Shown: piece by piece, positions 40,770-58,665 of the stretch
Numbering within the stretch: position 1 is the stretch's first letter
Layout of the letters: the number at the start of each line of letters is the position of its first letter
Assembly: GCA_019075905.1 (NCBI GenBank)
Contig: JAGXAM010000006.1
Span: 1-64,000 of the forward strand
DNA from: Hyphomicrobiales bacterium
GTDB taxonomy: Bacteria > Pseudomonadota > Alphaproteobacteria > Rhizobiales > Beijerinckiaceae
Direction: 5' to 3'
Length of the DNA stretch: 64,000 bases
The notes under the pieces: model-generated
The model's input: the letters and a program-made list of their open reading frames with translations, nothing else
Database searches by the model: none
What the model was told of the DNA's origin: nothing
Position numbers and translations under genes: made by a program

Positions 40770-41759
40770 TCAGCTCATCACCACGTTCACCGCGCTCTCG
40801 GGCAATTCCTTGCCAAACGAGCGCTGGTAGAATTCGGCCACCAGGGCACGTTCGAGTTCGTCGCACTTGTTAAGGAAGGTCAACCGGAAGGCGAAGCCGA
40901 CATCGCGGAAAATCTGCGCATTTTCCGCCCAGGTGATCACCGTGCGCGGGCTCATCACCGTTGACAGGTCACCGGCCATGAAAGCATTGCGCGTGAGATC
41001 GGCCACCCGCACCATCTTGTTCACGGTGTCGCGGCCCTCGCGCCCGGCCTGCAGCGCCTTGACCTTGGCGAGCACGATCTCGACCTCATTGTCATGCGGC
41101 AGGTAATTCAGCGTCGTCACAATCGACCAGCGGTCCATCTGCCCCTGGTTGATCTGCTGTGTGCCGTGGTAGAGCCCGGACGTATCGCCGAGCCCGACGG
41201 TATTGGCGGTGGCAAACAGCCGGAACGCCGGATGCGGCTTGATGACCCGGCTCTGGTCAAGCAGGGTCAGCTTGCCGGAAACCTCGAGCACGCGCTGGAT
41301 GACGAACATCACATCCGGCCGGCCGGCATCATATTCGTCAAAGCAGATGGCGACATTGTTCTGCAGCGCCCAGGGCAGGATGCCGTCACGAAATTCCGTG
41401 ACCTGCTTGCCGTCCTTCAGCACGATCGCATCCTTGCCGATGAGATCGATACGCGAGATATGGCTGTCGAGATTGACCCGGACGCAAGGCCAGTTCAGCC
41501 GCGCAGCCACCTGCTCGATATGAGTGGATTTGCCGGTGCCGTGATAGCCCGTCACCATGACGCGGCGGTTATAGGCAAAGCCGGCCAGCACTGCCATGGT
41601 GGTGTCGCGGTCAAACAGGTAATCAGGGTCGAGATCGGGCACATGCTCGTCCGCCGCACTGAAGGCCGGTGCCTCCATATCGCTGTCGATGTTGAACACC
41701 TGCCGAACCGAGACTTTCATGTCGGGCAGGCCGGCGGCGCGGGCGGTAGCGGTTTGCAT
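40770..41759 (-). CDS. cobS: Cobaltochelatase subunit CobS
   Basis: A 329-aa AAA+ ATPase of the aerobic CobNST chelatase that inserts cobalt into hydrogenobyrinic acid a,c-diamide for vitamin B12. [20 protein letters not shown] begins the conserved part (residue 14). Walker A is [20 protein letters not shown], Walker [17 protein letters not shown], and the sensor is [22 protein letters not shown] 41720 is an alternative start. cobT normally lies just downstream; here the permease of an ABC importer follows 143 bases later. Upstream is the usual J-domain gene. Confidence 0.95.
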
Positions 41760-54279: not shown

Positions 54280-57200
54280 CTACATCATTTCGACGGCGAC
54301 AATCCCCGGAATGGCGCGAATGGCCCCGCTCGCCGCCGCCGACATGCTGAACTTGCCCGGCAATTTCACCTCGACCTCGCCGCGCTGCGCCCCCAGCATC
54401 ACCACGATGCTCACCTCCCCGGCGGCGGCCCCGGCCTCGGCCCCGCGCTTTGCCGCGAGCCCGGCGGCGACATGATCAATCGCATGGGCATCGCGCAGGA
54501 AAATCCGCATGCCGCGCTGGCGCTGCGCCACCGCCGCCTCCAGAGGTTCGATCTCGACGATGCGGGCGCGCACGTCTTCACCCTCCAGCGTCGCCTGCAG
54601 CGACACAATCACCAGCGCCCCCTTTTCCAGCCGGTCGCGAAATTGATTGAGCGCTTCCTGGAACAGCACCGCCTCATATTGCCCGGAACTGTCGGAGAGC
54701 GTGACAATGCCCATTTTCGAGCCGGATTTGGTGCGTCGCTCCGCCCGCTCCAGCACCAGCGCCGCCAGCCGCCCGGCCGAGGCGCCGCGCCGCACCGATT
54801 CGGAAAATTTCGCCCAGACATCGAGCCGCATCCGCGCCATGACGCCGGCATAATCATCGAGCGGATGGCCGGAGAGGAAAAACCCGATGGCATCAAATTC
54901 CCGCTTCATGCGCTCGGGCGCGCCCCAGCCCTTGGCCACCGCCAGCCGCAGCGCGGTGGCATCGCTCTGCACGAACAGGCCGTCCTGGCCACTCTGCCGG
55001 TCAGAGGCCACACTCATGCCATGCTGCAGAATACGCTCGGCATTTTCGAACACCAGCGCCCGGTCGGGCTCGATCTCGTCAAAGGCCCCTGCCGCCGCCA
55101 GCGTCTCGATGATCCGGCGGTTAAGGGCCGTGCCCGCCGCCCGCTCCGCGCAATCGCCGAGCGAGGCAAAGGGCTGCGCCCCGCGCGCCGCGACGAGGGC
55201 GCTCGCCTGACCATCACCAATGCCCTTGATCGCCGAGAGCGCATAGGCAATCGCCAGCGAACCATCGGCCTGACGGAGCACTGAAAAATCTGCCTGCGAG
55301 CGTTGCACCGAGGGAGCGATCACACCAATGCCCATGCGCCGGGCCTCATGGCGCAATTCCGCCAGTTTGGCCGTATCCGAGCGCTCCAACGACATCGACG
55401 CCGCCAAAAACTCCACCGGATAATTGGCCTTCAGCCAGGCCGTCTGATAGGAAATCAGCGCATAGGCCGCAGCATGGCTCTTGTTGAAGCCGTAATCGGC
55501 AAATTTGGCCAAAAGGTCGAAAATATTATCGGCCTGGGCCCGCTCCAGCCCGCGCTCCAGCGCACCGCTGACAAAGCGGGCGCGCTGCGCATCCATCTCG
55601 CTCTTGATCTTCTTGCCCATGGCGCGGCGCAGCACGTCGGCCTCGCCCAGCGAATAGCCCGACAACAGCTGGGCGATCTGCATCACCTGTTCCTGATAGA
55701 TGATGACCCCGAAGGTCTCGCGCAGCACCGGCTCCAGTTTCGGATGGTAGTAATCGGGCTCCTCATCGCCGAGCTTGCGGGCGCAATAGGTCGGAATATT
55801 ATCCATCGGGCCGGGCCGATACAGCGCCACCAGCGCGATCAGATCCTCAAACCGGTCGGCGCGCATCTCGACCAGCGCCTTGCGCATGCCGCCGCTTTCA
55901 ACCTGGAACACCCCCACGGTCTCGCCGCGCCCGAGCAGCTCATAGGTAGTCGCATCATCGAGCGGGATGGCGCCGAGATCGACCCTGACGTCGCGCTGCG
56001 CCAGCAAATTGACCGCCCGGGCCAGCATGGTCAGCGTCTTCAGGCCGAGAAAGTCGAATTTGACCAGCCCGGCCGATTCGACCCATTTCATGTTGAACTG
56101 GGTCGCAGGCATTTCCGATTTCGGATCGCGATAGAGCGGCACCAGCTCGGTCAGCGGCCGGTCGCCGATCACCACGCCGGCCGCATGCGTCGAGGCGTTG
56201 GAATAAAGCCCCTCCAGCGTGCCAGAGATTTTCAGCATCCGCGCGACCCGCGGCTCGCCCTCTGCAGCCTCGCGCAGGCGCGGCTCACCCGACAGCGCCT
56301 CCTGCAGGCTCACCGGCTTGGCCGGGTTTTGCGGCACCATTTTCGCGAGCCGGTCAACCTGGCCCAGCGGCATTTCCAGCACCCGCCCGACATTGCGCAT
56401 GACGCCGCGCGCCAGAAACGAACCGAAGGTGATGATCTGCGCCACCCGGTCCGCGCCATAGCGCCGCCGCACATAGGCAATGACCTCGTCGCGGCGCTCC
56501 TGGCAGAAATCCACGTCGAAATCCGGCATGGAAATACGTTCAGGGTTGAGAAAGCGCTCAAACAGCAGCCCGAATCGCAAGGGGTCGAGATCGGTAATGC
56601 CGAGCGCATAGGCCACCAGCGATCCTGCACCCGAACCACGCCCCGGCCCCACCGGAATGCCGCGCGCCTTGGCATAGCGGATAAAATCGGCCACGATCAG
56701 AAAATAGCCGGGAAATTTCATGCCGGCGATCACGCCCAGCTCAAATTCGAGCCGCTGCACATAATCCTGCCGCTCAAGGCCGCTGGCAGGCGGCAGCACC
56801 GCCAGCCGCGACTCAAGCCCGCTATGGGCATCGGCCTGCAGGCTGGCCACCTCATCGACCGCCGCCCCGTCCTCACGCACGAAGCGCGGCAGGATCGGCT
56901 TGCGCTTGCGCGGACGATAGGCGCAGCGCTGGGCAATTTCCACACTCGTCGCAAGCGCTTCCGGCACATCCTTGAATTTGGCCATCATCTCGGCGCGCGA
57001 CATGAACCGGTTATCGGCCGAGACGCGGCGGCGTTCCTCAACGCCGACAAACGTGCCCTCGGCGATGCACAGCAAGGCATCATGGGCTTCATGATCGGCC
57101 GCATCGCCAAAATAAGGCTCGTTGGTCGCCACCAGTCCGAGCGAATGCCGGCAGGCAAGATCGATCAGCGCGCTCTCCACCTGGCGCTCGTCCCGCAGGC

Positions 57201-57750
57201 CCTGCCGCTGGAGCTCGATGGTGAGATTGTCGCCAAACAGGCCGGCAAGACTCTGCAACCGCGCCTCGGCAACCTCGCCCCGTCCTGCCCGCAAGGCCTG
57301 GTCGAGCGGCCCGGCCGGCCCGCCGGTCAGCGCAATCAACCCGCTGACCCGGCCCTCAAGCTGGTCGCGCGCCAGCGCCGGCCCGAAGTCGCTGGCCGAG
57401 GCCAGGTGCAATTGCGAGCACAGCGACATCAAATTGAGATAGCCGGTTTCATCTTGTGCCAGCAGCACAATCGACGAGCGGCCATCATGCAGCGGCCCCT
57501 GGCGCGAGGCCTGTTGCACTTCGCCGGAAAAAACCATGCTCATCTGCAGGCCGATGATAGGCTGCACGCCGAGCTCCGCCATTTTTTCAGAAAATTCCAG
57601 CGCCCCGAACATATTGTTGCTGTCGGTGAGCGCGAGCGCCGGCATCTTGTCGGCGAGCGCCCTTTTGCCCAGCTGCGCCAGCGTGATCGCGCCCTCACGC
57701 AGCGAATAGGCCGAATGCACATGCAAATGAACAAATCCGGGGTCCTGCAT
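54280..57750 (-). CDS. dnaE: DNA polymerase III alpha subunit (DnaE1)
   Basis: An 1156-aa replicative polymerase. The PHP domain (1 to about 210) begins FVHLHVHSAYSLREGAI. The palm (about 345-480) has GIPVGPGRGSGAGSLVAYAL and the catalytic PDFDVDFCQERRDEV, with the acidic residues at about 410-414. The thumb and fingers contain RPGPMDNIPTYCARK and FNKSHAAAYALISYQTAWL. A C-terminal OB domain (LSDSSGQYEAVLFQEALNQF, about 985-1005) follows. The length marks DnaE1, not the shorter mutagenic DnaE2. A 35-aa SOS-controlled ORF lies directly upstream. Confidence 0.97.
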   Translation of the reverse strand: MQDPGFVHLHVHSAYSLREGAITLAQLGKRALADKMPALALTDSNNMFGALEFSEKMAELGVQPIIGLQMSMVFSGEVQQASRQGPLHDGRSSIVLLAQDETGYLNLMSLCSQLHLASASDFGPALARDQLEGRVSGLIALTGGPAGPLDQALRAGRGEVAEARLQSLAGLFGDNLTIELQRQGLRDERQVESALIDLACRHSLGLVATNEPYFGDAADHEAHDALLCIAEGTFVGVEERRRVSADNRFMSRAEMMAKFKDVPEALATSVEIAQRCAYRPRKRKPILPRFVREDGAAVDEVASLQADAHSGLESRLAVLPPASGLERQDYVQRLEFELGVIAGMKFPGYFLIVADFIRYAKARGIPVGPGRGSGAGSLVAYALGITDLDPLRFGLLFERFLNPERISMPDFDVDFCQERRDEVIAYVRRRYGADRVAQIITFGSFLARGVMRNVGRVLEMPLGQVDRLAKMVPQNPAKPVSLQEALSGEPRLREAAEGEPRVARMLKISGTLEGLYSNASTHAAGVVIGDRPLTELVPLYRDPKSEMPATQFNMKWVESAGLVKFDFLGLKTLTMLARAVNLLAQRDVRVDLGAIPLDDATTYELLGRGETVGVFQVESGGMRKALVEMRADRFEDLIALVALYRPGPMDNIPTYCARKLGDEEPDYYHPKLEPVLRETFGVIIYQEQVMQIAQLLSGYSLGEADVLRRAMGKKIKSEMDAQRARFVSGALERGLERAQADNIFDLLAKFADYGFNKSHAAAYALISYQTAWLKANYPVEFLAASMSLERSDTAKLAELRHEARRMGIGVIAPSVQRSQADFSVLRQADGSLAIAYALSAIKGIGDGQASALVAARGAQPFASLGDCAERAAGTALNRRIIETLAAAGAFDEIEPDRALVFENAERILQHGMSVASDRQSGQDGLFVQSDATALRLAVAKGWGAPERMKREFDAIGFFLSGHPLDDYAGVMARMRLDVWAKFSESVRRGASAGRLAALVLERAERRTKSGSKMGIVTLSDSSGQYEAVLFQEALNQFRDRLEKGALVIVSLQATLEGEDVRARIVEIEPLEAAVAQRQRGMRIFLRDAHAIDHVAAGLAAKRGAEAGAAAGEVSIVVMLGAQRGEVEVKLPGKFSMSAAASGAIRAIPGIVAVEMM

Positions 57751-57777
57751 GATTCCCGCTCCTGCCGCCAGGGCCCG

Positions 57778-57885
57778 TCACGTACCCGCCAAAACCCGCC
57801 CGACGCTCACCACCATGGCGATATAGAACGCAACCGAAGTCAGTTCGAGGCAGAAGCGACCCGATATGAACAACAAACGCAACAT
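57778..57885 (-). CDS. 35-aa hydrophobic peptide under LexA control (SidA-like candidate)
   Basis: A 36-codon frame (ATG 57885, stop TGA 57780-57778) encodes a peptide that starts MLRLLFISGRFCLELTSVAF and ends YIAMVVSVGRVLAGT. Residues about 13-34 form one hydrophobic segment preceded by basic residues, so a single-pass inner-membrane peptide with the N-terminus inside is likely. GAGGG is four to five bases before the ATG. Upstream, at 57914-57941, a promoter has a perfect LexA box between its -35 and -10 elements. Caulobacter SidA is a 29-aa SOS-induced inner-membrane inhibitor of FtsW-dependent division; size and control match. From memory sidA also lies next to dnaE, but orthology by sequence cannot be checked here. 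It is 27 bases upstream of dnaE. Confidence 0.68.
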   Translation of the reverse strand: MLRLLFISGRFCLELTSVAFYIAMVVSVGRVLAGT

Positions 57886-57913
57886 GTCACCCTCGCATTT
57901 CGAGAATGACGCC

Positions 57914-57941
57914 ATTATGTTCTATTTAAGTTCCGTGTCAA
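57914..57941 (-). promoter_or_regulatory. SOS promoter: TTGACA / CATAAT with a LexA box in the spacer
   Basis: On the minus strand TTGACA (57941-57936) and CATAAT (57919-57914) are 16 bases apart. GTTCTATTTAAGTTC at 57919-57933 (plus strand) is a perfect alphaproteobacterial LexA operator, GTTC-N7-GTTC, filling the spacer and touching the -10. A bound LexA would block RNA polymerase. The start of transcription would be near 57907, leaving a leader of about 22 bases for the 35-aa ORF. It might also help transcribe dnaE during SOS. Confidence 0.8.
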
Positions 57942-57981
57942 CCCCATTTGTTCTCTCTTTGTAAAAAAGAACAGAACGTCC

Positions 57982-58665
57982 TCACGGCAGCTCATGCACC
58001 TTGGCATCGCGCAAGGTCACCCGCCGGTCCATACGCGCTGCAAGTTCGAGATTATGGGTGGCAATCAGCGCCGCAAGGCCGGTCGCCTTCACCAGCGCCG
58101 CGAGCGCCGCAAACACCTTGTCGGCCGTGGCCGGGTCAAGATTGCCGGTCGGCTCGTCGGCCAGCAGGATTTTCGGGGCATTGGCAACCGCCCGGGCAAT
58201 CGCCACCCTCTGCTGCTCGCCCCCGGAAAGCTCGGCCGGCCGGTGGGTCTTGCGCGCGCCGAGACCGAGATAATCAAGCAGTTCGGCCGCACGGCTTGCA
58301 GCCTCGCGGCGGCTCAGACCGGCGATCATCTGCGGCAGCATGACATTTTCGCTCGCCGAGAATTCCGGCTGCAAATGGTGCATCTGATAGACAAAGCCAA
58401 TCTTGCTGCGGCGCAGCGCCGTGCGCTGGCCATCATCGAGCTTCGAGGTTGGCACACCCTCGATATAGACCTCGCCGCCATCGGGCGTCTCCAGCAGCCC
58501 CGCCATATGCAAAAGGCTCGACTTGCCCGCCCCCGAGGGCGCGATCAGCGCCACCGACTGGCCGGGCCACAGGCCAAGATCGGCCTGGTCGAGGATGATC
58601 AGGCTCTCGCTGCCCTGGTGATAGCGCCTCTCGGCCTGGTGGAGATAAAGAACAGGATCATTCAT
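57982..58665 (-). CDS. lolD: Lipoprotein-releasing ABC transporter ATPase LolD
   Basis: A 227-aa ATPase of the LolCDE machine that hands outer-membrane lipoproteins to LolA. Walker A is [20 protein letters not shown], the signature [20 protein letters not shown], and Walker [19 protein letters not shown]. The region [20 protein letters not shown] is typical of LolD. Its start overlaps the permease stop by four bases. It is the last gene of proS-lolC-lolD. Confidence 0.95.

Follow-up and report, generated by a model that had tools for sequence, protein, structure and literature searches.

A LexA-boxed small gene before dnaE in Alphaproteobacteria, probably related to Caulobacter sidA

Directly upstream of dnaE in the window (i.e., the whole stretch of 64,000 nucleotides analyzed here) lies an open reading frame of only 35 codons preceded by a LexA-type box. 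This raises the question of whether the frame is a gene and whether its product is a counterpart of SidA, the SOS-induced division inhibitor of Caulobacter. In our view the frame is probably a genuine small gene that is translated and is either an ortholog or a close homolog of Caulobacter sidA; its product would be a single-pass membrane peptide that is controlled by LexA and inhibits septum synthesis. The elements of the locus are collected in Table 1.

Table 1. Positions of the promoter, operator, and genes around the candidate small gene in the window.
Feature	Coordinates	Strand	Evidence or remark
-35 hexamer TTGACA	57936..57941	-	sequence reading and promoter scan
LexA operator GAAC-N7-GAAC (GAACTTAAATAGAAC), inside promoter spacer	57919..57933	-	perfect match; predicted site
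-10 hexamer CATAAT, 16-nt spacer	57914..57919	-	promoter scan
RBS-like GAGGGTG	57888..57894	-	sequence; retained as GAGGGTG in G042 and G368
Candidate sidA-like gene, 35 aa, single hydrophobic segment at about residues 11-29	57778..57885	-	ORF, conservation, model, profile
dnaE (replicative Pol III alpha)	54280..57750	-	begins 27 nt past peptide stop
LolD-like ABC ATPase, conserved upstream neighbour	57982..58665	-	context

On the minus strand the order is lolE-lolD, TTGACA, operator, CATAAT, GAGGGTG, the 35-codon ORF (start codon at 57885, last base of the stop codon at 57778), and dnaE. The sequence-only reading had described a perfect LexA operator within the spacer of a TTGACA/CATAAT promoter, and this is what is found, the operator reading GAAC-TTAAATA-GAAC from 57933 to 57919. 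It had further proposed a 35-aa ORF with an RBS-like site and one hydrophobic segment before dnaE, and the sequence, the promoter scan, and conservation all agree with that proposal. The scan of 57600-58100 for promoters and terminators returned a single promoter site, matching at 11 of 12 positions against a shuffle mean of 0.1, and found no terminator. Because only 27 nt separate the ORF from dnaE and no terminator was found, a shared transcript of the two is likely in the window. A 45-aa version of the peptide starting at ATG 57915 was rejected; its start codon falls within the -10 hexamer, and the sister species G042 has lost this ATG. The 35-aa start is therefore preferred. An 868-codon open frame antisense to dnaE (55303-57909, plus strand) probably just reflects the codon use of dnaE.

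Taken alone, the LexA box in the window is not significant. The GTTC-N7-GTTC pattern matches twice, at least two matches were obtained in 22 of 100 shuffles, and LexA-type boxes in the whole genome (39 matches) are rarer than the control pattern (82). Box and peptide together do exceed chance, because both are conserved jointly and with a codon-level pattern of change. The second match in the window (41694-41708) has a G+C-rich spacer, falls inside long ORFs of both strands, and is probably a chance occurrence. LexA itself is encoded in this genome, with a matching box 72 nt upstream of lexA. Gene identification was attempted for 20 of the 39 boxed places, which were retrieved for that purpose; among these, boxes precede recA and ssb (both passing NCBIfam cut-offs) as well as ORFs matching ImuA, RadA, YifB/ComM, and RmuC, all below cut-off, in part because the ORFs were cut by the fetched stretch. 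The stretches L329, L330, L331, L327, L325, and L320 (box at position 1001) provide a draft SOS regulon of recA, ssb, and imuA-, radA-, yifB/comM-, and rmuC-like genes.

Within the genus, the peptide was found in four genomes at 100, 97, 82, and 55% identity (the last match covering 22 residues with an E value of 0.19), each time just before dnaE. The window differs from G042 by six synonymous and one non-synonymous changes (pN/pS 0.06) and from G368 by 14 synonymous and seven non-synonymous changes (pN/pS 0.18), while G042 versus G368 gave a pN/pS of 0.14; the two shifted frames gave values of 1.7 or more. The operator is identical in G042 and carries one spacer change in G368. These ratios, a check of the Ka/Ks type that had been proposed beforehand, indicate that the 35-codon ORF is under purifying selection within the genus. 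Breakage of the frame in relatives that retain the box had been named in advance as a refutation, and the opposite is seen, with the frame kept and few amino-acid changes.

Beyond the genus, we analyzed the upstream regions of dnaE in the family of the window, where DnaE matches were obtained in 142 of 149 genomes and 90 of these loci were examined (30 from the search and 60 fetched). Among the 88 loci with at least 300 nt upstream, a perfect box in sense orientation occurred within 600 nt in 51 and one in the opposite orientation in nine, whereas the reversed control patterns CAAG/CTTG occurred in none. A hydrophobic ATG frame of 24-50 codons starting 20-125 nt after the box was present in 49 of the 51 boxed loci, compared with 150 of 3000 random places on the other strand (5.0%) and 62 of 3000 shuffled stretches (2.1%). 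These two controls are cleaner than an earlier random-start control (8.6-23%), which was inflated by catching real peptides. A peptide not preceded by a perfect box was present in seven more loci: in five the box has one mismatch, and two are cut by a contig end. With imperfect boxes included, the peptide was present in 56 of the 90 loci, representing 24 of 35 genera, and no such peptide was found in the other 34 loci. In two loci (L035 and L041), a perfect box in sense orientation precedes the DnaE motif by 186 and 192 nt, respectively, and no small hydrophobic ORF was detected; LexA control of dnaE alone is possible there. Four others (L088, L090, L106, and L110) have tandem boxes upstream of dnaE, with GTTC-N7-GTTC placed 25 nt before GAAC-N7-GAAC. 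Across genomes, the distance from the box to the DnaE motif ranges from 166 to 542 nt. In an alignment of 40 family peptides, the position immediately preceding the helix is almost always Glu, and the window peptide has E14 among its conserved residues. Neither these 40 peptides nor four further ones had a supported match in Pfam or NCBIfam.

The search for the peptide upstream of dnaE in relatives, as suggested by the sequence-only reading, thus revealed box and peptide as recurrent in the family, and the same is true beyond it. A class-level sample of 56 loci, six of them too short or unreadable, had the box in 12 of the 50 readable loci and the peptide in 11 of those 12. In a sample of named organisms, which is not random because it takes the best 80 of the 589 relatives found for a Caulobacteraceae DnaE, box and peptide occurred together in 28 of 78 loci, a peptide being present behind all 28 boxes; three more named loci (two Caulobacter sp. 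and Brevundimonas diminuta) had the peptide behind one-mismatch boxes. Within these best 80 of 589 relatives, no peptide was found in 13 loci of named Rhodobacterales or in four of named Acetobacteraceae. Carriers of the layout before dnaE include Bradyrhizobium, Tardiphaga, Ancylobacter, Devosia, Stappia, Bauldia, Maricaulis, Aquisalinus, Sneathiella, PS1 clade bacteria, and Caulobacteraceae, and in many relatives the gap between peptide and dnaE is 100-300 nt. Some genomes occur in more than one sample (e.g., L061 and L267 represent a single genome) and related genomes do not count as independent, so these figures are counts and not probabilities. A profile search recovered 12 further peptides in 138 loci outside the first count and none among 423 antisense ORFs. 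Searching 385 genomes of the class with the profile gave four matches below an E value of 1e-5, each just upstream of dnaE, and 15 other rows at 0.004-0.1; finding the peptide outside the family therefore depends on position. The profile search found no second copy of the peptide in the genome of the window itself. When the 35-mer was searched in 297 genomes of the order, only the window's own genome and G042 fell below an E value of 0.1, and the other 20 matches were at chance level.

In Caulobacter, we take sidA to be CC1927, next to dnaE (CC1926). The latter assignment appears in a table row of PMC1839093, and SidA is described in PMC4211646 as a 29-aa inner-membrane peptide that is LexA-controlled, SOS-induced, and acts through FtsW. 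Caulobacter genomes were recognized by means of the marker PopZ, using a query that was checked against PDB 6xry. One genome resembling C. vibrioides (G887) encodes a PopZ 100% identical to that of Caulobacter over 177 residues, and upstream of its dnaE there is a LexA box, GAACATCTTGTGAAC, followed by a 29-aa ORF. Judging from its length, box, and place, together with the position of CC1927 beside CC1926, this ORF is probably SidA. In a PopZ-identified genome, the place corresponding to that of the window peptide is thus occupied by a LexA-boxed ORF of 29 aa, which strengthens the likeness to SidA that had been proposed from the window alone. Among Caulobacteraceae loci chosen by PopZ or other handles, the ORF was present in 29 of 29 and a perfect box in 27; in the Caulobacteraceae box sample a peptide followed 26 of 27 boxes, and all seven named Caulobacteraceae have the ORF before dnaE. 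R6, S13, F17, W19, and M20 are conserved in these peptides. Caulobacter loci also display two or three box-like repeats.

On the one hand, direct similarity between the window peptide and the Caulobacter 29-mer is weak. BLASTP produced no alignment of the two, and MAFFT aligned them at 24% identity, with a gap-free helix alignment of 21 window-peptide residues against LELTSVAFYIAMVVSVGRVLA. A profile built from Caulobacteraceae only gave the window peptide 5.4 bits, a score reached by four of 1471 decoys (a set cleaned of pieces of the peptide itself), and ranked five of the 45 other peptides of the family higher than the 99th percentile of the decoys; in the reverse direction the Caulobacter 29-mer scored 4.3 bits, reached by 40 of the 1471 decoys. 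On the other hand, similarity through intermediates appears firm. When the profile was built from 54 peptides not belonging to the family sample, a set that may include MAGs or other relatives of the window's own family, the window peptide scored 13.1 bits, which none of the 1471 decoys reached (maximum 9.7). Under this profile, 41 of the 45 other peptides of the family exceeded the 99th percentile of the decoys. Likewise, hhalign of the family against the Caulobacteraceae peptides returned an E value of 2.7e-5 and a probability of 74%. Considering position, operator, size, and profile, common descent with SidA is the best account.

A single-sequence AlphaFold2 model of the window peptide consists of one helix spanning residues 2-34 (pLDDT 92.9), and the best 19-residue hydropathy is 1.84. 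The gene, its purifying selection, the operator with its promoter, the place before dnaE, and the profile similarity can be read from the DNA, and we infer LexA binding, induction, and membrane insertion of the peptide. In undamaged cells, LexA on the spacer operator would block RNA polymerase. Upon DNA damage, active RecA would lead to cleavage of LexA and the 35-aa peptide would be made, inserting as one helix in the inner membrane. There it would keep FtsW, together with FtsI and FtsN, from synthesizing septal peptidoglycan; the Z ring would persist and constriction would be delayed until the DNA has been repaired. That division is arrested and that FtsW is the target are expectations drawn from SidA, which low-confidence models place on TM7 of FtsW (PMC13396833, 2026). 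Being so short and divergent, the window peptide could have drifted in its target.

A different function for the same membrane peptide is conceivable and in our view unlikely, namely that of a LexA-controlled peptide acting like TisB, which would disrupt the membrane, reduce the proton-motive force, and slow cellular activity without blocking FtsW specifically. Size, single helix, and SOS promoter would fit it equally well. However, the gene place is shared with the 29-aa ORF of the Caulobacter genome, no Rfam RNA family was detected in 57400-58200 and hence no known antitoxin RNA there, although an uncharacterized one may be present, and the conserved residues (the acidic residue before the helix in the family and the five positions in Caulobacteraceae) suggest a specific contact. 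Quite improbable is a leader ORF whose translation tunes the downstream dnaE, the peptide itself being without a job. The 27-nt gap with no terminator would suit such a leader, as would the fact that the peptide was always sought and found before dnaE, but the amino-acid sequence is retained within the genus and the spacing to dnaE varies widely (166 to 542 nt from the box to the DnaE motif). We give very little weight to a LexA promoter that mainly serves dnaE with the peptide as a passenger or minor partner; the layout does make a shared transcript likely, yet the peptide is conserved as a protein and 100-300 nt separate it from dnaE in many relatives. A chance ORF behind a chance box, for which the unexceptional frequency of the box in window and genome could be cited, is scarcely credible and was rejected in view of the low pN/pS and the conservation of box and peptide across loci.

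An SOS-induced division inhibitor related to SidA is thus the reading that we retain. As a tentative and rather doubtful extension, sidA-dnaE may be an old LexA-controlled unit of Alphaproteobacteria, in which one SOS transcript would give a division brake and more replicative polymerase, tying the checkpoint to replication restart, with the brake later lost in lineages such as Rhodobacterales. If the relationship with SidA holds, the SOS division checkpoint of Caulobacter would be a widespread alphaproteobacterial device, not the speciality of one group. Annotation misses these genes because they are only 25-45 codons long. A literature search, the scope of which did not extend to the founding SidA paper (2011), found no SidA outside Caulobacter, and searching papers for the letters of the Caulobacter box and peptide gave unrelated partial matches only. 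The breadth of this unannotated peptide family is new; the mechanism is not. Bradyrhizobium, Devosia, Stappia, and Ancylobacter are carriers ready for study, and the natural set of diverged variants would help to map how a one-helix peptide stops FtsW, if that is indeed what it does.

Several known systems resemble this one in part. TisB and DinQ of Escherichia coli are depolarising toxins under antisense RNA control, and their gene place differs from that of the window peptide. Both are SOS-controlled single-helix peptides, DinQ according to its abstract. YneA of Bacillus subtilis, ChiZ, and SosA are likewise small membrane proteins that are induced by SOS or damage and inhibit division at a late step, and YneA is described as acting through FtsW (PMC13396833). 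Unlike the window peptide, YneA and ChiZ are portrayed in that source as having a LysM domain, which is absent here, and the sequences of all three are unrelated to it. DidA of Caulobacter crescentus is presented in PMC4211646 as a small single-pass division inhibitor at the FtsW/FtsI/FtsN step, but it has 71 aa, is driven by DriD instead of LexA, and is SOS-independent, whereas the window ORF has 35 aa and a LexA box. Compared with SidA, the window peptide is six residues longer and diverged beyond BLASTP detection (24% identity by MAFFT), but both have a LexA box, tiny size (29 versus 35 aa), a single hydrophobic helix, a basic N-terminus, and a place directly before dnaE.
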